This document shows positions 2 to 24,184 of a DNA stretch of 24,767 nucleotides, in pieces. Source of the stretch: a virus. A model generated the notes under the pieces. That model had not been told where the DNA came from. It did no database searches and saw only the letters and a program-made list of their open reading frames with translations. The stretch is from the IMG/VR virus record IMGVR_UViG_3300025087_000289, positions 1-24,767 of that record; one strand, written 5' to 3'. The translations under genes were made by a program, and so were the position numbers. The first letter of the stretch is position 1. The number at the start of each line of letters is the position of its first letter.

Positions 2-85
2 GGGTTTAAGGTCAAAAAGTACGCACAGCCCAAACCTGTTAAATTTATTAATACGTTGGCGGGTGGTTTGACAAAGCTTGTTTAA
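2..85 (+). CDS. 3' end of an upstream structural gene (partial)
   Basis: An open frame enters from the left edge and ends at TAA 83-85, giving 27 visible residues that finish LAGGLTKLV. The start lies outside the window. It sits just before the connector and nozzle genes, where a capsid or head-completion gene is expected, but the fragment is too short to identify. The consensus promoter at 68-96 overlaps its last codons. Confidence 0.55.
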   Translation, partial: GFKVKKYAQPKPVKFINTLAGGLTKLV

Positions 86-96
86 AAATATATAAT
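68..96 (+). promoter_or_regulatory. Consensus sigma70 promoter, copy 1 of the promoter-leader-terminator module
   Basis: TTGACA at 68-73, a 17-base spacer and TATAAT at 91-96 form a perfect consensus. Transcription should start near 103. The leader carries ATCTTT (104-109), a 6-bp hairpin (110-115 with 123-128) and then the terminator at 130-156, so an RNA of about 54 nt is predicted unless the terminator is overridden. Confidence 0.8.
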
Positions 97-129
97 TTAT
101 CTAATCTTTACCTACAAGGATGGTAGGTC

Positions 130-156
130 AGACGGGCACAAGGCTCGTCTTTTTTT
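130..156 (+). terminator. Intrinsic terminator in leader 1
   Basis: An 8-bp stem pairs 130-137 with 143-150 (one G.U pair) around a 5-base loop and runs into seven T residues (150-156). It lies downstream of the promoter at 68-96 and only 6 nt before the ATG at 163, so it would attenuate its own transcript. The same layout recurs at 3045-3079 and 22347-22378. Confidence 0.75.
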
Positions 157-162
157 ATTTAT

Positions 163-333
163 ATGTGCAAAAAAGGTCACGTTCCGTGGAATAAGGGGAT
201 AAAAACAGGTCTTGTGCCTAAAAGTGCTTTCCAGAAGGGCAACAGCCCGTGGAACAAGGACACAAGTAGAAAGGATGGTTTGTTAAATTGGCAAAAGTCA
301 TTGATACCGTCTCTGACGCAATTACATATATAA
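163..333 (+). pseudogene. Truncated homing-endonuclease remnant (NUMOD3-like N-terminus only)
   Basis: The 56-codon frame encodes GHVPWNKG and then a second FQKGNSPWNK unit. These basic PWNKG motifs are typical of the N-terminal DNA-binding part of phage HNH homing endonucleases; the intact HNH gene at 3087 carries GHIPWNKGK. No HNH domain follows: after about residue 40 the frame runs out of phase into the next gene, whose TTG start at 288 lies inside it. There is no SD; the ATG follows the terminator U-tract by 6 nt. I infer a decayed endonuclease that lost its catalytic half, although a small expressed DNA-binding peptide is possible. Confidence 0.5.
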
Positions 334-974
334 ACAGTCTTTATGAATCTGACTCATCGGCACCATCATCCGGAGATGAGGATTTTACTGTTTGGTTGTC
401 ACTCTTGAATGTTGCCGTCAATATCTGGGAAAACGAGGAGGGTGTGTTGTGGAAGGAGTTGTTTGTTAAGTTGGCCGATGCTGCGACGGGGGATAAAACT
501 ACGTCCGCGGAAGATACGTCTTATGCGTGCCCAACAGATTTTAAGTTTCCTGCTAGTGGTTATGTGTGGCTGGGTTCTGGGACGAATAAAGTCGCATATA
601 AGGTAATATCCCAAGAAAAGGCACAGACTTTGGAGAATGATACATCCCACTGGTGCTATTTCCTCCTAGACGGTTCGCCAACTCTGGAATTTAATCCGAA
701 TCTTTCTAGCACTTTTCCCGCAAATTACACTATTTCCTATAATTACTACAAGAACGCTACCAAACTAACCGCGGGGGCATCCGTGTTTGAGATGGCCGAC
801 CCCATGTTCGCAGTTTATTATGTTCTATCAGAGCTTAAAAAAGACGAGGGGGATACATCTGCCCTTGGAATAGCTACGCAGAAACTAGAGGGCATGCGAA
901 CGCGGAACGTCGCTCCCGCATGGTTGCAGGACAGTACAGAATTTAGTCCCGCAGATGACGGGTTTGGTGTTTAA
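288..974 (+). CDS. Head-tail connector/adaptor candidate
   Basis: A 228-residue acidic protein with no signal peptide or membrane segment. Its N-terminal third is helical and includes a Trp-rich amphipathic stretch (about residues 34-60, with VWLSLLNVAVNIWENEEG); the middle looks beta-rich, and residues 165-190 form another helix (MADPMFAVYYVLSEL). Its position directly before the nozzle-like gene matches the head-tail adaptor (gp11 or tail tube A) slot of short-tailed phages. The start is the TTG at 288, because the only stop-free upstream stretch contains no ATG, and a purine-rich AAAGGA lies about 13 bases upstream. The family is not recognised from sequence alone; the role is inferred from position and size. 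Confidence 0.6.
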   Translation: MAKVIDTVSDAITYINSLYESDSSAPSSGDEDFTVWLSLLNVAVNIWENEEGVLWKELFVKLADAATGDKTTSAEDTSYACPTDFKFPASGYVWLGSGTNKVAYKVISQEKAQTLENDTSHWCYFLLDGSPTLEFNPNLSSTFPANYTISYNYYKNATKLTAGASVFEMADPMFAVYYVLSELKKDEGDTSALGIATQKLEGMRTRNVAPAWLQDSTEFSPADDGFGV

Positions 975-2983: not shown

Positions 2984-3012
2984 TTGACAATTATGTACGG
3001 AGGTTATAAAAT
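2984..3012 (+). promoter_or_regulatory. Sigma70 promoter, copy 2 of the promoter-leader-terminator module
   Basis: TTGACA at 2984-2989, a 17-base spacer and TAAAAT at 3007-3012; an overlapping TATAAA begins at 3005. Predicted start is near 3019, at an ATCTTT box (3019-3024) also seen at 104-109 in copy 1. A 5-bp hairpin (3026-3030 with 3038-3042) precedes the terminator. Confidence 0.75.
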
Positions 3013-3044
3013 TACAATATCTTTGCTAACATGAGCGGTTAGAC

Positions 3045-3079
3045 AGACCAAGAACCTTGGGGTGATTGGTCTTTTTTTT
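3045..3079 (+). terminator. Intrinsic terminator in leader 2, with a competing hairpin
   Basis: A 7-bp stem (3045-3051 with 3066-3072) is followed by eight T residues at 3072-3079. The 5' arm can instead pair with 3056-3060 (CCAAG-AAC-CTTGG, 3048-3060), which would exclude the terminator stem as in an attenuator. The HNH start codon is 7 nt past the T-run. Confidence 0.7.
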
Positions 3080-3086
3080 GTTTACT

Positions 3087-3647
3087 ATGCCTAAGGGAAT
3101 TTATAAAAGAACGCCGCAAGGGTTGAGGAACCTAAGTATCGCACAGAAAGCAGTTGGAAGAACATCTGTACCCGAAGGGTGTAAGAACACCGGGAGAACA
3201 AGGTTTAAGAAAGGCGATAATATCGGCAATAAGAGTGCGTTGGGACACATACCGTGGAATAAAGGAAAGCGCATGTCCGAGGAAACAAAAAGGAAACTTA
3301 GCCAAAGTTTGAGGGGAAAGTTAGCGGGGGAAAAGAATCCGGCGCGGAGGGGCGGGATACAATCTAAAGACAGGCTCGAAAGGGTTAGGTTTCAGAGAAC
3401 TATACAAAGAGGGGTGTTCGAACGAGACGACTACACATGCCAGATGTGCGGGGCGCGAGGTGTTGATTTGCAAGTCGATCATATTCAGTCTTGGTCGGAA
3501 TATGTCGAGTTACGATTCAATATGGACAACTGTAGAACATTGTGCGCTAAGTGCCACTATGGAATTACTTTTGGTAGACCCGTGCCGTCGGGCGTTAGGG
3601 GCTGGGGTCATAATAAATTAAACGCGGAAAAGAGGATAGTAAAATAG
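3087..3647 (+). CDS. HNH homing endonuclease with NUMOD3-type motif
   Basis: A 186-residue basic protein. The N-terminal half is a DNA-binding region with FKKGDNIGNK and GHIPWNKGKRMSEETKRKL (about residues 40-71), a NUMOD3-like helix. The C-terminal half is an HNH nuclease: CQMC at 118-121, the catalytic DH of LQVDHI at 131-132, Asn148, and CAKCH at 153-157, with four Cys binding a structural zinc. A TTG at 3066 would extend the frame but lies inside the terminator hairpin, so the ATG at 3087 is preferred. No SD is visible. The gene is wedged between tail genes, has its own promoter and leader, and its stop codon overlaps the damaged start region of the next gene. It is probably a free-standing selfish homing gene. 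Confidence 0.88.
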   Translation: MPKGIYKRTPQGLRNLSIAQKAVGRTSVPEGCKNTGRTRFKKGDNIGNKSALGHIPWNKGKRMSEETKRKLSQSLRGKLAGEKNPARRGGIQSKDRLERVRFQRTIQRGVFERDDYTCQMCGARGVDLQVDHIQSWSEYVELRFNMDNCRTLCAKCHYGITFGRPVPSGVRGWGHNKLNAEKRIVK

Positions 3648-4501
3648 CTGCAAGCTCAACGGATTTATTTAAAAAAGGAGCTAGGAAATGGGTTGGACAG
3701 ATAGGCTCGGGAGGGGTCTCGGACGCAGTAGTTACTACCATCCCACTCTCCTCGGCTACAGGGCTTCCCACCGACACCGCAGTGGTTGCAGTAATCGACC
3801 GTGTGGATTCTGCGGGAACTAAAACTCCGTCACTTGAGGAAACTGTTGTGGGTGTAGTTAGTGGTTCTAACCTCGTGACTGCCACACGCGGCGCAGAGGG
3901 AACCGCGCAGGCACATTTAGCAGGCGCTGTGGTCGAAATACTGATAACTAACGTTGGGTGGAATGATCTGATAGATGGGTTACTTGTCGCGCACAATCAA
4001 GATGGAACGCATAAATCCGGCTCTGTATTAACACTTCCTCAAATTAACGATACTTCCTCGGATCATCAATACATACTTTCTGTCTGCGAACTTGCCGCTG
4101 ATAGAACAGTAGCGTTACCACTTTTGACAGGAAATGACGAATTTGTATTTAAAGACCACACACAAACATTTACCAACAAACGTATATCCAAACGTGTTGT
4201 GGTAACTACCCAAAGTGCCACACCTACTATAAATACAGACAGCGGGGATATTTTCCAGATAACGGGACTCGCCCAGGCTATAACTTCTATGACAACAAAT
4301 CTAACGGGAACACCGGTCGCTGGGGACATGATCGAAGTTCAGATAACGGACAACGGTACGGCGCGGGCCATAACATGGGGCGCATCTTTTTCCGCAACTA
4401 CAGTGGCTCTGCCGGCTACCACCACAGTGTCTACTATGTTGCGCGTACTATTTCAACGTAATAACGCGAACACTGTTTGGGATTGTATTGGGAGCATATA
4501 A
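3644..4501 (+). CDS. Tail fibre protein lacking a canonical start codon
   Basis: The frame is open from 3617. The first ATG, GTG or TTG is a GTG at 3782, yet the 46 codons before it read as coherent protein (SSTDLFKKGARKWVG, then VVTTIPLSSATGLPTDTAV) typical of a fibre N-terminus. An ATA at 3644 lies 7 nt after AGAGGA and overlaps the HNH stop as ATAG, so AUA initiation coupled to HNH translation is the best explanation; a -1 slip on AAAA (3641-3644) is an alternative. From ATA the protein has 285 residues. DHTQTFTNKRIS near residue 170 is a fibre signature, and the C-terminal beta-rich domain (about 185-285) may be a receptor-binding tip. Conservative annotation would begin at 3782 (239 residues). 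Confidence 0.7.
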   Translation: MAASSTDLFKKGARKWVGQIGSGGVSDAVVTTIPLSSATGLPTDTAVVAVIDRVDSAGTKTPSLEETVVGVVSGSNLVTATRGAEGTAQAHLAGAVVEILITNVGWNDLIDGLLVAHNQDGTHKSGSVLTLPQINDTSSDHQYILSVCELAADRTVALPLLTGNDEFVFKDHTQTFTNKRISKRVVVTTQSATPTINTDSGDIFQITGLAQAITSMTTNLTGTPVAGDMIEVQITDNGTARAITWGASFSATTVALPATTTVSTMLRVLFQRNNANTVWDCIGSI

Positions 4502-8372: not shown

Positions 8373-8412
8373 CCTTTAATAACAAGTAAATCCGCCCGAA
8401 AGCGGATTCTTC

Positions 8413-8441
8413 TTGACACGTTTAACGTCGGCGCGTATATT
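8413..8441 (+). promoter_or_regulatory. Strong sigma70 promoter for a small RNA
   Basis: TTGACA at 8413-8418, a 17-base spacer and TATATT at 8436-8441. The predicted start is near 8448. No coding frame with an SD follows before the terminator at 8522-8556. Confidence 0.75.
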
Positions 8442-8447
8442 AGTCTT

Positions 8448-8557
8448 TGATGAAAAAAACTATATATATTATAGCGAACGACTATCACCTTGTCAACTTG
8501 AGTGATAACGTGGTGGACAGAACTAGCTCCCTGACTTCGGTTGGGGGGCTAGTTTTG
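8448..8557 (+). ncRNA. Candidate small structured RNA of about 110 nt
   Basis: Bounded by a near-consensus promoter and a strong intrinsic terminator. An internal perfect 6-bp stem, TATCAC with GTGATA (about 8483-8505, 13-base loop), precedes the 14-bp terminator hairpin. No known RNA family was recognised. Similar in plan to, but longer than, the three terminated leaders in this window. The start is an estimate from the -10 position. Confidence 0.5.
8522..8556 (+). terminator. Strong intrinsic terminator with UUCG tetraloop
   Basis: A 14-bp stem (8522-8535 with 8540-8553; G.U pairs included) is closed by a TTCG tetraloop with the preferred C-G closing pair and followed by TTTT. It ends the small-RNA candidate. 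Confidence 0.75.
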
Positions 8558-13611: not shown

Positions 13612-13724
13612 CCTAGAACTTAAAAGTAGGGGGTGATTTTTACTCTTGGGCACATTCTATTGCCCCCTACTTCTAGGCCCTAGTGTTTCGTCGCCGAACG
13701 GCAGCCCGGCAGGTGCTGGGCTGT
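13612..13724 (+). promoter_or_regulatory. Two stable hairpins between ninG and a zinc-finger gene
   Basis: A perfect 10-bp stem (AAGTAGGGGG 13624-13633 with 13663-13672), extended by CCTAGA/TCTAGG (13612-13617 with 13672-13677), encloses a 29-base loop. A second 10-bp stem pairs 13701-13710 with 13715-13724 around AGGT. Neither is followed by a T-run, so this reads as a structured leader or RNA-stability element rather than a terminator. Confidence 0.5.
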
Positions 13725-13740
13725 GCGGGGTATAAAAAAT

Positions 13741-14094
13741 ATGCCGTCATACCTCATAAGAAAAGCAAAAGCGCTTGAAAACTTAAAAGAACACCTGGAA
13801 AGGATGGGCGAGGATCCTTCATACTTCCCGGCCATAAGGATGGTCGCCGGTAAAGCGATAGACTTTTATATGTGTGGAGACCGAAGATGCCCAAAGTGCC
13901 GAACTTTAGTAAGTAACTACAGTAAGTCGGGACTTTGCAAAAAGTGCTACAACAAGCTTTATATGCGTAAAAGAAGAAAAGACGGGGAATTTGCCCGGAT
14001 AGAGAGGTTAAAGATGCGTCAGCGTAGAAGATTAGTACGGCGAGGGGCGGGGATAACAATGTCTCCTGGGGGTGTTGACAAGATAGGCAACTAA
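13741..14094 (+). CDS. Basic zinc-finger protein
   Basis: A 117-residue protein. The ATG at 13741 is preferred over GTG 13723, which lies in the arm of a stable hairpin; only GGGG about 11 nt upstream resembles an SD. It contains CPKC and, 14 residues on, CKKC (about residues 53-73), a zinc-ribbon pair, followed by an intensely basic tail (KRRKDGEF, MRQRRRLVRRG). It is probably a nucleic-acid-binding regulator. The promoter for the next gene overlaps its last codons. Confidence 0.6.
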   Translation: MPSYLIRKAKALENLKEHLERMGEDPSYFPAIRMVAGKAIDFYMCGDRRCPKCRTLVSNYSKSGLCKKCYNKLYMRKRRKDGEFARIERLKMRQRRRLVRRGAGITMSPGGVDKIGN

Positions 14095-14119: not shown

Positions 14120-15148
14120 ATGAAAAAACTAACTAAACTCACAGACGCCCAAATAGACAGGATGTGCGAGTTTGCTAAAGAACGTATTGCGATTCAGTTA
14201 AATACGATTTCAACCCCCGATACTGAAAAAGAAGCTGAATACAATCTTCGAGAAGCCTACAAAGTAGCCGGTCTTAAAGAAAGTATAAAAATAACTTGGG
14301 TAGACTCGCCTAGCGAGGGAATGAAATATCTGCGCGGGGCCAGCGTTGGGGCCAGCGTTGGGGCCAGCGTTAGGGACAGCGTTTGGGACAGCGTTTGGGC
14401 CAGCGTTAGGGCCAGCGTTAGGGACAGCGTTTGGGACAGCGTTTGGGCCAGCGTTAGGGCCAGCGTTTGGGCCAGCGTTAGGGACAGCGTTTGGGACAGC
14501 GTTTGGGCCAGCGTTAGGGCCAGCGTTGGGGCCAGCGTTTGGGCCAGCGTTGGGGCCTATTACAATGCGGATCTTCTGTCCTTTTATGGGTTTTTCAACG
14601 AGGTGTTAGAACCCAATAATTTAAGATGGCTAGATAGAACAAATCAATTAGTATCTGGCTACCACTTATATTCTAAAGAGGCTGTTCTTGTAAGAAAACC
14701 AAAACTTCTAACCCTTGATGAAAACGGAAAACTTCACAACGAAGTACAAAAATGTATGGAGTACCGAGATGGTTGGGGGTTTTATGCGTGGCACGGAACA
14801 AAAGTACCAGAATATGTGATAACAACACCCAAAGAACAGATAACTAAAGAGGTTTGGTTAAAGGAAGAAAACCAAGAAATCAAAAGGTGTTTGGTTGAAA
14901 AGGTCGGCTACGACAAGTTTATGGAATGGTTCAAACCCGCAACGATAGACACTTGGGCGGATTACAAATTACATCGTATTTTTGAGCAAGTTGATGGGGA
15001 GGAGTTAAGACTTCTCCAGATGAAAGATACATCAACAGAACGTATATATTTTTTGAGAGTTCCTCCTACAGTTAAGACCTGCAGGGAGGCAGTGGCGTGG
15101 TCATTTCAGCTAGATGCTGATAAGTACCTGCCGGAACAGGAGGCTTGA
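14120..15148 (+). CDS. DUF6745-like protein with SV-tetrapeptide repeat array
   Basis: A 342-residue protein behind GGAGGA. After a helical N-terminus (1-70) comes an array of 18 four-residue units (residues 73-144) of type (G/R/W)(A/D)SV, including three copies of the higher-order block [16 protein letters not shown]. The C-terminal part (about 190-300) carries the DUF6745-type pattern: [44 protein letters not shown], then [11 protein letters not shown]. The period of four suggests a beta-solenoid-like or helical repeat, comparable in look to pentapeptide repeats. No enzymatic motif was seen and the function is unknown. The promoter at 14075-14102 appears to be its own. Confidence 0.7.
14336..14551 (+). 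repeat. 12-bp tandem repeat, 18 units, inside a coding region
   Basis: Units follow the pattern (G/A/T)GG(G)(C/A)CAGCGTT with a strict 12-bp period over 216 bp; a diverged nineteenth unit follows. The 12-bp unit keeps the frame whatever the copy number, so length changes by slippage would alter the protein repeat without truncating it. A 48-bp higher-order unit occurs three times. Confidence 0.9.
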
Positions 15149-21922: not shown

Positions 21923-22132
21923 ATGAACTATGATCTAATCATAAGGGAGTCGAATGTTCCCGCACACGCAGATATTGAAGCAAGTATCGCGGAAAAGAAT
22001 ACTGGTCAGATTACCTTTACCCTTAGGATTAATGGCGGAAATATTGTAGATGTTTCGTTTGTGGAGTACGTGGATGTACGAAAGAAATATGCAACAGATA
22101 AATACCACCCCACTGGCACAACTATTAAGTAA
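21923..22132 (+). CDS. Small protein, paralogue A
   Basis: A 69-residue protein starting right after the TerL stop, with AAGGAGGGG about 10 nt upstream. The C-terminal half GQITFTLRINGGNIVDVSF...RKKY is matched by GQITFNFEVKNGVVVSET...RRRY in the next gene, so the two are tandem paralogues of a small beta-hairpin domain. Position between terL and portal suggests a minor virion or regulatory protein. No family was recognised. Confidence 0.55.
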   Translation: MNYDLIIRESNVPAHADIEASIAEKNTGQITFTLRINGGNIVDVSFVEYVDVRKKYATDKYHPTGTTIK

Positions 22133-22298
22133 GAACTTACTGTTTCACGTCATTCTTGAACGAGAAGTACAGACAACCCCCTTTGGGCAAATAACCTTCA
22201 ACTTTGAAGTAAAAAACGGTGTCGTAGTGTCGGAAACGCTCAACATAGTAAAAAACCGCAGAAGGCGTTATTCCGGAACGCGTATTGACACAGAATGA
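22074..22298 (+). CDS. Small protein, paralogue B
   Basis: A 74-residue protein from ATG 22074 (GGAG 7 nt upstream); ATG 22089 is an alternative. It overlaps paralogue A by 59 nt in another frame. The shared G-Q-I-T-F ... N-G-x-V-V ... (R/K)-x-x-Y layout covers residues 40-68. The N-terminal part (QQINTTPLAQLLSKNLLFHV) differs. The promoter at 22285-22313 overlaps its last codons. Confidence 0.5.
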   Translation: MYERNMQQINTTPLAQLLSKNLLFHVILEREVQTTPFGQITFNFEVKNGVVVSETLNIVKNRRRRYSGTRIDTE

Positions 22299-22313
22299 CG
22301 TCGGTTGTATAAT
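22285..22313 (+). promoter_or_regulatory. Consensus sigma70 promoter, copy 3 of the promoter-leader-terminator module
   Basis: TTGACA at 22285-22290, a 17-base spacer and TATAAT at 22308-22313: a perfect consensus. The predicted start near 22320 gives a leader of about 59 nt with a short hairpin (22329-22332 with 22339-22342) before the terminator at 22347-22378. Confidence 0.8.
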
Positions 22314-22346
22314 TACCTTGAGTCGAAAATACTGAAATGTATATTA

Positions 22347-22378
22347 AGACGAGCTATATTATGTGCTCGTCTTTTTTT
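22347..22378 (+). terminator. Intrinsic terminator in leader 3, just before the portal gene
   Basis: A perfect 8-bp stem (22347-22354 with 22365-22372) around a 10-base loop, followed by seven T residues (22372-22378). The stem sequence GACGAGC/GCTCGTC nearly repeats that of leader 1. The portal ATG is 6 nt past the T-run. Confidence 0.75.
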
Positions 22379-22384
22379 GTTCTT

Positions 22385-24184
22385 ATGAGCACAATTATAA
22401 ACGAGATTAAATCGAGATTTCAAGCGTCCTATGATAACCTTTCTACTAAAAGAGAGGTTTGGGACAGTATGGAAGATCTTTTTCACGGCAGGTTAAACGA
22501 CACTGTATCTAGTAGAACTAAATCTCAGATTTTCGACCACCGTCTATCAACACTCATAATAGAGCGTGCCCACAGAGTTATGGCACAACTTCCCGTCGGT
22601 AAGGTGAGGGGCATTTCTAAGAATGACCTAGGAGATGCCAGGTTGAAGAATTTGATCTTAGATAAGTACGTCGTTCCAAATGCCAACGCTCAGTTCGATT
22701 TTTTAACTAAGCTAAGGATGGTCGATATGTATTCTAATGTCTACGGAGCGTTCGATGTTCTCGTGGATTGGGACGTACGCTCAAACGGGTATGCTGGTCC
22801 AGACATATGGCTATTAAATGTTCGTGACGTGTTTCCCCAGGCGGGGGCTGTTTCTCTCGAGGATAGTGATTTTGTTATCGTAAGAACGTGGCAACCCCTA
22901 TCTTATTTTGAACGATTGGGTAAGAAGGATGGTTTCAAAAACATTTCTAGTATTGTGGGTAGATTAAAGGATAAATCTGGTTCCAAACAAAACCGTACCT
23001 CCGAAGACCAATCTAAGCGTGGGGAAACACAATATCCCAATACTTCGACGGCTAAAGGCATGGGGTTTTTTGAGGTTTTAACTCAATTCGAGGGGGATAG
23101 ATGGGTCGATTTTTGCGTTGATGCGGACATGGAGTTTAGGGACATCGAAAACCCACACAAGAATGGGGAATTGCCTATCGTTCGTAAGTATTCCATGCCC
23201 CTGCTTGATGATATATCTGGCATGGGGGATATGGAACGGGGAGAGTCTATGCAAAAGACCATCAATGCTGTGTGGAATCTGTACTTAGATGGGGTAAAAA
23301 TGTCTATCTTTCCGCCCGCACTGATAAACAAGGACAACATCGCTGCAATGAGTTCTATCAAGTGGGGTGCGGCCGAGAAGTGGTTAGTTAGGGGGCAGAT
23401 AGACAATGCCGTCAGGACTATCAATCTATCTCCGCAAGGTATTTCTACGTTTAATAACACACTCCAGACAGCCAACGCTTCAATCCTCAATCTATTTGGT
23501 ACATCGGATACAACAGTAACCAAGGAAACCGACGCGGGTTATGGTAGGACTCCACAGGCGTTGCAAATGCAACAGGCACGGGAAAATACAAGAGATGCCG
23601 CAGACAGGTTCTATATGGAGAGATTTTTGACCTCCGTGATGAAAAAGATGGTAAACCTCGTATCCAAGAAGCAACCGTCGTCTGTTGCTATAAGGATGTT
23701 TGAGGAGGAAATCGCAGAGATTGCAAGGAGTTACCCGGAGATTGAGGAGATGTATGACAAGGAGAGTGGAAAACTGGTTATAAGTAAGAAAGGATCCGGT
23801 TCCAACCTCTATGATTACGAGATCGTATCTGGGTCTACGTTTGCTGCGGACCAAAAAGTGCAACAGGACAACCTGTCTTCACTCATAACGCTGTATAAGA
23901 GCTCTCAGACACCAAATGGAAATACTTTGGTGGCGGATTTGGATAAAGAGGGTTATATATTGAAGTTCGGCGAGCTTTTCAAGAAAGTGATTGCAAGCTC
24001 CGGCATTCAGGATTGGGATAAAATTCTTGTCGAAAAGACCGAGGAGGAGAAAGACCAGACCGTTCTAAGCAGTGACGCTCAAATTTTCCAAAATGTTTTA
24101 GCACAAATGCAACAGGGGCAGAATATGAACGCAACGCCGCCCGAGATGGGGACGGCACAACAACCGCAGGGGGGGGTTTTATGA
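22385..24184 (+). CDS. Portal protein
   Basis: A 599-residue protein placed after terminase, where the portal is expected. Evidence is the size and portal-like layout: helical N-terminus (STIINEIKSRFQASYDNL), a wing region with GAFDVLVDWDV and LNVRDVFPQ (about 125-160), a central helix pair (MQKTINAVWNLYLDGVKMSI), a crown/stem region with TDAGYGRTPQALQMQQARE (near 390-410), and a Gln-rich C-terminus (AQMQQGQNMN). Twelve copies would form the DNA channel. ATG 22385 is preferred; in-frame ATG 22337 lies upstream of the terminator stem. There is no SD. The gene overlaps the next by 4 nt. Confidence 0.82.
   Translation: MSTIINEIKSRFQASYDNLSTKREVWDSMEDLFHGRLNDTVSSRTKSQIFDHRLSTLIIERAHRVMAQLPVGKVRGISKNDLGDARLKNLILDKYVVPNANAQFDFLTKLRMVDMYSNVYGAFDVLVDWDVRSNGYAGPDIWLLNVRDVFPQAGAVSLEDSDFVIVRTWQPLSYFERLGKKDGFKNISSIVGRLKDKSGSKQNRTSEDQSKRGETQYPNTSTAKGMGFFEVLTQFEGDRWVDFCVDADMEFRDIENPHKNGELPIVRKYSMPLLDDISGMGDMERGESMQKTINAVWNLYLDGVKMSIFPPALINKDNIAAMSSIKWGAAEKWLVRGQIDNAVRTINLSPQGISTFNNTLQTANASILNLFGTSDTTVTKETDAGYGRTPQALQMQQARENTRDAADRFYMERFLTSVMKKMVNLVSKKQPSSVAIRMFEEEIAEIARSYPEIEEMYDKESGKLVISKKGSGSNLYDYEIVSGSTFAADQKVQQDNLSSLITLYKSSQTPNGNTLVADLDKEGYILKFGELFKKVIASSGIQDWDKILVEKTEEEKDQTVLSSDAQIFQNVLAQMQQGQNMNATPPEMGTAQQPQGGVL

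Follow-up and report, generated by a model that had tools for sequence, protein, structure and literature searches.

Why should a phage set an intrinsic terminator between a consensus promoter and the portal gene behind it? The question is raised by the 24,767-base virus record analysed here (the window, by which we mean that whole stretch of DNA), which reads as a partial tailed-phage genome with genes for an endolysin, NinG, an MT-A70 methylase, a large terminase (two ORFs), a portal protein and an SU10-like head-tail adaptor. The portal gene lies behind the third of three promoter-hairpin-terminator modules, M1, M2 and M3. Together with the near-identical record G001 the window suggests a circle of about 38.7 kb, an estimate built on the spans from M3 to M1 in G001 (16.5 kb) and from M1 to M3 in the window (22.2 kb). 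A phage collection contained a single weak relative of the portal protein (26.8% identity over 30% of the query), and viral contigs gave 39 confirmed portal relatives with a single protein query and 202 with an alignment, the best 80 of 202 being used.

The initial annotation had read the order promoter, hairpin, terminator and ATG at 68-162, 2984-3086 and 22285-22384, and all three modules lie exactly there:

68-96, plus strand: M1 promoter, TTGACA (68-73), 17 nt, TATAAT (91-96), 12/12 consensus
105-132, plus strand: M1 leader core, with TCT (105-107), stem ACCTAC/GTAGGT (110-115 with 123-128) and AGA (130-132), the last common to the terminator
110-128, plus strand: M1 hairpin; ATG at 163
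130-156, plus strand: M1 intrinsic terminator
2984-3012, plus strand: M2 promoter, TTGACA (2984-2989), 17 nt, TAAAAT (3007-3012), 11/12 consensus
3020-3047, plus strand: M2 leader core, with TCT (3020-3022), stem CTAAC/GTTAG (3026-3030 with 3038-3042) and AGA (3045-3047), the last common to the terminator
3026-3042, plus strand: M2 hairpin; ATG at 3087
3045-3079, plus strand: M2 intrinsic terminator, with an internal loop in the stem
22285-22313, plus strand: M3 promoter, TTGACA (22285-22290), 17 nt, TATAAT (22308-22313), 12/12 consensus
22322-22350, plus strand: M3 leader core, with GTC (22322-22324), stem ATAC/GTAT (22329-22332 with 22339-22342) and GAC (22348-22350)
22329-22342, plus strand: M3 hairpin; ATG at 22385
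22346-22378, plus strand: M3 intrinsic terminator, stem AAGACGAGC/GCTCGTCTT, T7

The AGAC...GTCT bases, the runs of 7-8 T and the 6-7 nt before the ATG also agree with that annotation, and the ATCTTT that it saw at the predicted start of two copies belongs to M1 and M2. We scanned both strands for sigma70 promoters that have a hairpin and T-run 15-75 nt downstream. The scan of the window returned exactly the places of M1, M2 and M3 and no others, and it found no case of the reverse order (terminator, then promoter). Dinucleotide-shuffled windows (n=200) gave 0.185 modules on average and 2 at the maximum when promoters from 9/12 upward were accepted; with the threshold raised to 11/12 there were none. 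Facing promoters are seen at 8388-8496 (12/12 on the minus strand, 8496-8468; 11/12 on the plus strand, 8413-8441); they adjoin terminator-like hairpins and are perhaps an early control region.

The genes that adjoin the modules are the following:

163-333, plus strand: homing endonuclease remnant (NUMOD3-like by eye) between the M1 T-run and the adaptor start
288-974, plus strand: head-tail adaptor gene, the original gene behind M1 (SU10_adaptor, 26.1 bits, cut-off 27)
3087-3647, plus strand: HNH/NUMOD3 homing endonuclease between the M2 T-run and the tail gene
22050-22298, plus strand: small conserved ORF adjoining M3 upstream, its end overlapping the -35 box, with a basic NIVKNRRRRY stretch
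22385-24184, plus strand: portal gene (PHROGs head-tail adaptor, E 3e-6; portal, E 3.8e-5), its ATG 6 nt past the T-run

M1 sits behind a same-direction ORF of at least 305 aa whose end lies within the M1 promoter, and M2 behind the same-direction ORF 975-2981, so transcripts from upstream must read through these two modules as well. Between terminase and portal, at 21923-22298, two small overlapping ORFs in different frames are kept in most relatives compared; both contain a similar GQITF... stretch, and the second finishes, at the -35 box, in a basic NIVKN(K/R)RKKY-like tail. Elsewhere in the window, near-identical short repeats (VGASV.../VRDSVWDS...) occur at 14346-14609 within ORF 14120-15148, where a second frame is also open.

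Homing endonuclease genes (HEGs) thus follow two of the three copies. The ORF at 163-333 is 47% identical to a HEG-like ORF of G001 and has no Pfam or PHROGs match of its own. The M1 insert is present in the window, L236 and L237, where the NUMOD3-like remnant intervenes and the adaptor begins with TTG; it is absent from L233, L234 and L235, where the adaptor ATG directly abuts the M1 T-run. The M2 insert, an HNH/NUMOD3 gene, is present in the window, L041, L042 and L043, where the tail gene has lost its ATG; it is absent from G001 (L122), where M2 runs into the tail gene with an ATG about 40 nt past the T-run. As 3300025009_000315 has the M2 insert (L043) without the M1 insert (L235), the two were gained or lost independently. 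In the window the N-terminal codons of the tail gene (about 3645-3700) differ from those of the HEG-free allele of G001, a pattern such as a co-conversion tract would leave.

With HEG ORFs in these places, a mobile cassette of homing endonucleases might have carried in the promoter and stem-loop, or a shuffling cassette like the PeSLs, the promoter early stem loops described as mediating shuffling in T4-like phages (PMC4503421). The modules, however, stay before the adaptor and tail genes in the HEG-free alleles, and in relatives the module stands immediately in front of portal and adaptor genes. We regard a cassette origin as extremely improbable, and its homing-gene form as ruled out by the retention of the modules. 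Judged from these alleles, the HEGs are guests that use a leader belonging to another gene; several free-standing endonucleases of T4 rely on upstream promoters (PMC2988022). The earlier statement that the modules precede structural or homing genes therefore stands for the structural genes, the homing link being a later insertion at two modules.

The layout is kept far beyond the window. A strong terminator lies just 5' of the portal start in 55 of 60 parsed upstream regions, a count from which near-identical loci and the incomplete L169 and L200 were left out, as were beforehand L040, L213 and L219 with no visible terminator (55/63 with them), and in which L220 duplicates L004 and L221 duplicates L024. 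The five exceptions are L022, L025 and L222 with no terminator, L032 with a weak one and L224, where the call is a chance match inside coding sequence. Within 10-90 nt before the portal terminator a promoter of at least 9/12 is found in 52/55 regions, against 15/55 on the complementary strand; L006, L033 and L193 have none of that strength. Across 17 contigs (the window and 16 relatives), 115 terminator calls yielded 38 modules and 3 cases of the reverse order, with G022 and G027 covered in part, M2 unscored for its internal loop and terminators possibly double-counted where pieces overlap. Chance would give about 4 modules by an arithmetic estimate from 649 promoter-like sites and about 1.2 Mb of strand, and G023 and G030 gave no module. 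BLAST against the window proteins identified the gene behind the module as portal in 13 cases and adaptor in 8. An ORF of at least 100 aa follows closely in 29/38; the other nine have none in reach, and some of these nine are surely chance. By eye, the upstream regions of adaptor genes, down to 35% identity, have a hairpin-terminator before the start in 19/20 (the exception is L253), some with a portal-type leader, and a canonical promoter is not seen in all. From their structural role the module genes would be late genes.

Such a terminator could also be explained without any regulation: it would end the upstream transcript just past the next promoter, and its leakiness would set a constant level downstream. 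Signals do overlap in compact phage genomes, and leakiness needs no factor, none having been found in the CAT_RBD and lambda-type Antiterm searches described below. A terminator of the upstream gene could, however, precede the promoter, yet that order was found 3 times against 38, and a bare terminator has no need of the covarying hairpin and outer helix described below. Constant leakage is in our judgement quite unlikely.

In 52/67 leaders the T-run overlaps the start codon or stops no more than 10 nt away from it, and a Shine-Dalgarno-like sequence was found for 10/67 module genes against 18/28 other window ORFs (an author-chosen set), so translation start at module genes is unusual. No Shine-Dalgarno sequence was seen before the window portal start at 22385. 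This position of the T-run also bears on whether the released RNA of 55-60 nt might itself be the product, a small regulatory RNA, with the downstream gene served by leakage. The compact promoter-hairpin-terminator anatomy would suit such an RNA, and a Bacillus sRNA model matches M3 weakly, below threshold (E 0.042; 22.9 bits, the gathering score being 60). Most Rfam matches below threshold arise by chance, though, and no family reached its gathering score in the whole window. The leader sequence is moreover unconserved between most modules of one genome, and the T-run lies close to the gene start in most leaders; we hold this explanation to be very unlikely.

Portal and adaptor leaders of one genome are often alike in layout and not in sequence. 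Within-genome leader similarity was reached by 49/5000 permutations and rests mainly on a pair in G025 and two leaders of G006. In G025 the portal leader and a second leader, in front of an ORF that is epimerase-like by eye, have 37 nt in common without a difference (L194, the two cores starting at bases 2932 and 7658), while their promoters and terminator loops differ. Since the leaders of one genome often differ in sequence, a single sequence-specific factor for all modules is not evident. Only two contigs contained the exact type-B pattern, with two copies each, and model R1, made from 9 leaders, recovers close members only and is no family-wide detector. A host riboswitch was also considered: over five MAGs, with up to 150 candidates per genome scored, model R1 matched once, at G014:C135:377-413, which fits the portal leader of L221 (core at base 380), and this candidate was dropped.

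In the leaders parsed, a small hairpin stands between promoter and terminator; the core is 29 nt long in M3 and 27 to 34 nt in 46 hand-marked cores. The stem flanks are conserved, with roughly G-C/T-C/T-N-A-A/T-A/G on the 5' side and a T- and A-rich stretch before the terminator. For the inner helix we took 17 of the 46 leaders chosen for a 4-bp stem and a 6-nt loop, so that pairing is 100% by construction and, the leaders having been picked for this layout, only two-sided changes are informative. Such changes occur in 4/4 pairs and fill 24 cells, where shuffling gives 7.1, and the covariation score is 0.915 against at most 0.347 when the partner is slid. The six-base loop reads TNTAAT in 12/17.

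We found that the triplet 5' of the stem can pair with the one that forms the foot of the terminator 5' arm, which gives a three-pair outer helix. The pair types include GTC with GAC, GCC or GCT with GGC, ACT or ACC with GGT, and AGC with GCT; M1 and M2 pair TCT with AGA in the same layout, and in M3 the outer partner GAC (22348-22350) is also part of the terminator 5' arm. In the 8 leaders with a 5-nt 3' flank, 95.8% of positions are paired and double changes occur in 3/3 pairs. In the 9 with a 6-nt flank, 88.9% are paired, a double change occurs in 1/3 pairs and one pair is broken in 3/9. Over the 46 cores, whose outer triplets were hand-marked with pairing in view, the counts are 10, 2, 0, 34 for the middle pair (T/A versus the rest) and 5, 3, 0, 38 for the first pair (A/T). 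When hairpins were located automatically in 70 leaders, blind to outer pairing, the summed pairing was 428.5 against 313 (SD 23.6), which 0/2000 permutations reached, and 44/70 leaders were paired against 29.9 expected (1/2000 permutations); these permutation counts, like those of covariation, take no account of kinship among leaders. The remaining 26/70 fall below the pairing threshold, some from a mislocated hairpin. The initial annotation had proposed a search of related phages for the same layout with covariation, and the answer is positive in the portal regions, in the contigs and in both helices.

As the 3' strand of the outer helix is the base of the terminator 5' arm, hairpin and terminator would compete, and the bases common to both structures make them a terminator/antiterminator pair. 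For the nascent chain up to the triplet, the predicted minimum free energy fold is the outer-helix form in M1 and M3; in M2 it is another fold, at -5.1 kcal/mol where the outer-helix form has -2.9. Once the leader is complete, the terminator is predicted to be the more stable of the two forms, with a margin over the outer helix of 4.8 (M1), 5.8 (M2) and 5.7 (M3) kcal/mol. The predicted energies thus favour termination at all three modules and support the suggestion, made in the initial annotation, of a short terminated RNA by default. Leader-peptide attenuation was considered as well and rejected: some loops have an ATG and a quick stop (by eye), many leaders have none, and no Shine-Dalgarno sequence was seen. 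A boxA-like reading of UCUUU and GCUCUAAU (by eye) was dropped because these letters change along with the stems.

We consider it somewhat probable that the module is a cis-acting antiterminator switch at the start of late genes, built like the RAT of the BglG family. RNA polymerase would start at the strong sigma70-type promoter and make the leader hairpin first, and the three nucleotides 5' of the hairpin could then pair with the three that also form the base of the terminator 5' arm. Where nothing holds the outer helix, the terminator would displace it and an RNA of about 55-60 nt would be released. A trans-acting factor or ligand, probably available only late, would hold the hairpin and outer helix; the lowest terminator pairs beside the U-tract would then stay open, with readthrough into the portal, adaptor or tail gene. 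The evidence for the switch consists of the layout, its conservation, the covariation of both helices, the common bases and the predicted energies, and from it we infer where transcription starts and ends, that the module switches, that it does so late and that a factor acts in trans. An outer helix of only 3 bp counts against such a switch.

We searched for proteins that might act on the leader. No CAT_RBD protein was found in 17 phage records (4/14 control genomes were positive), and no lambda-type Antiterm (PF03589) in the same 17. An ANTAR-domain search was negative in 17/17 phage records, with the control genomes silent too. The small ORF 22050-22298 appears as a candidate factor only; it has no Pfam match, and one relative resembles DUF2292 weakly (E 0.029, below cut-off). 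The Zn-ribbon ORF 13723-14094 by NinG was considered as a Q-like protein; it has no PHROGs match and no relative in the 11 other contigs compared. This ORF has a CxxC...CxxC ribbon and a basic C-terminus.

These searches bear on processive antitermination of the Q type, in which a phage protein would load at the late promoter and make polymerase ignore terminators, the hairpin being a pause or loading aid. The modules share their promoter-then-terminator order with AlpA/PalpB-tB and phage Q late promoters as described (PMC9371919), and a processive mechanism would let upstream transcripts pass M1 and M2, as their place between same-direction genes demands. PF03589 is nevertheless absent from the 17 records, and a covarying outer helix that shares the terminator base would be left unexplained by Q. 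We take Q-type control to be possible, if unlikely, and the RAT-like switch remains our preferred reading.

The portal promoter of relatives may carry a second signal. TTAGCA-N15-TGCTAA (at least 10/12) occurs in 23/55 portal upstream regions, against 0-3 at other spacings from 5 to 27; given TGCTAA, TTAGCA lies exactly 15 nt upstream in 12/35, against 0-2 at other spacings. This dyad has the core and spacing of CIRCE, the HrcA operator, whose consensus is TTAGCACTC-N9-GAGTGCTAA; the inner triplets of the dyad vary among relatives. Carriers include L004 (an 81% relative), L011, L153, L155, L157, L165, L171, L173, L179, L182 and L205, and in many the 3' half of the dyad overlaps the 5' triplet of the leader RNA. 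M1, M2 and M3 of the window lack it (best score 7-8/12). A count over the window plus 19 pieces from relatives gave 8 places with at least 11/12 at N15 (one being a portal promoter) against 0-4 at other spacings, so the dyad elsewhere is little above background.

HrcA was found in 0/18 phage records; HrcA and CIRCE-consensus sites are present in 3/5 MAGs holding a portal relative. G013 holds L220 with the dyad (11/12) and has neither HrcA nor CIRCE sites, and G014 has both, but its L221 is without the dyad; the MAG binning may be wrong, completeness being uncertain. Among the matches listed in a literature search of titles and abstract openings with partial coverage, none was for CIRCE at a phage promoter. 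In this family of uncultured phages the portal promoter might be a double gate on particle production, where host HrcA at a CIRCE-like operator would report free chaperones and a new leader-RNA class, present at several late genes, would choose between a short terminated RNA and readthrough, its antiterminator having bases in common with the terminator. Since dyad and HrcA do not coincide in two MAGs with close relatives, we regard the double gate as speculative and improbable.

What is known of late control in phages comes mainly from antiterminators bound at promoters and from new polymerases or sigma factors. If true, a leader RNA that covaries and has bases in common with a terminator, at several structural genes, would be a new RNA-level route to late control. 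The leader RNA is kept in portal relatives down to about 56% identity and is a compact part that could be tested without the uncultured host, and the CIRCE-like operator raises the question of whether phages read the chaperone state of the host before making capsids. The finding is real and wider than a single window: a phage late-gene leader that resembles an attenuator, from which we infer the switch itself.

How does this leader compare with known systems? HK022 put is a promoter-proximal structured RNA that promotes readthrough. PUT RNA is described as binding the beta' zinc finger (PMC4499122); the overlap of the module hairpin with the terminator argues instead for local attenuation. In Q/AlpA systems (lambda, 21, 82; PalpB-tB) an intrinsic terminator likewise lies shortly past the promoter of the regulated genes (PMC9371919). 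Those systems act through promoter DNA, with a QBE between -35 and -10 and a -10-like pause element; the phages studied here have several modules in each genome and an RNA hairpin that covaries. The initial annotation had suggested a distributed antitermination switch for late genes; the modules are indeed distributed over structural genes, and lambda Q and put give way as closest analogues, since the leader hairpin has bases in common with the terminator, an attenuator layout, and PF03589 is missing from the 17 records. PeSLs, which a title cited in PMC4503421 calls promoter-terminator motifs, resemble the modules as a repeated small cassette of promoter and stem-loop in T4-like phages; the modules differ in keeping their place before portal and adaptor genes across diverged relatives and in covarying.

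In ANTAR antiterminators a small hairpin, whose loop often has six bases, precedes the terminator, and the terminator 5' part can pair in an alternative way (PMC3369931). They comprise two hairpins where the module has one hairpin and an outer helix, and their loop starts with A and has G as its fourth base, whereas none of the six-base module loops (n=17) has A first. The RAT of BglG/SacY/LicT consists of one hairpin, about 29-30 nt long, which overlaps the terminator in part, and formation of either one prevents the other (PMC3369931). The module core is of similar size, and its hairpin appears mutually exclusive with the terminator through common bases, as judged from covariation and fold prediction only. 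The modules differ from RAT in fronting phage structural genes, in stems that vary freely between conserved flanks and in the lack of CAT_RBD in the 17 records. We place the leader in none of the RAT, ANTAR, Q or put groups; it looks like an attenuator.
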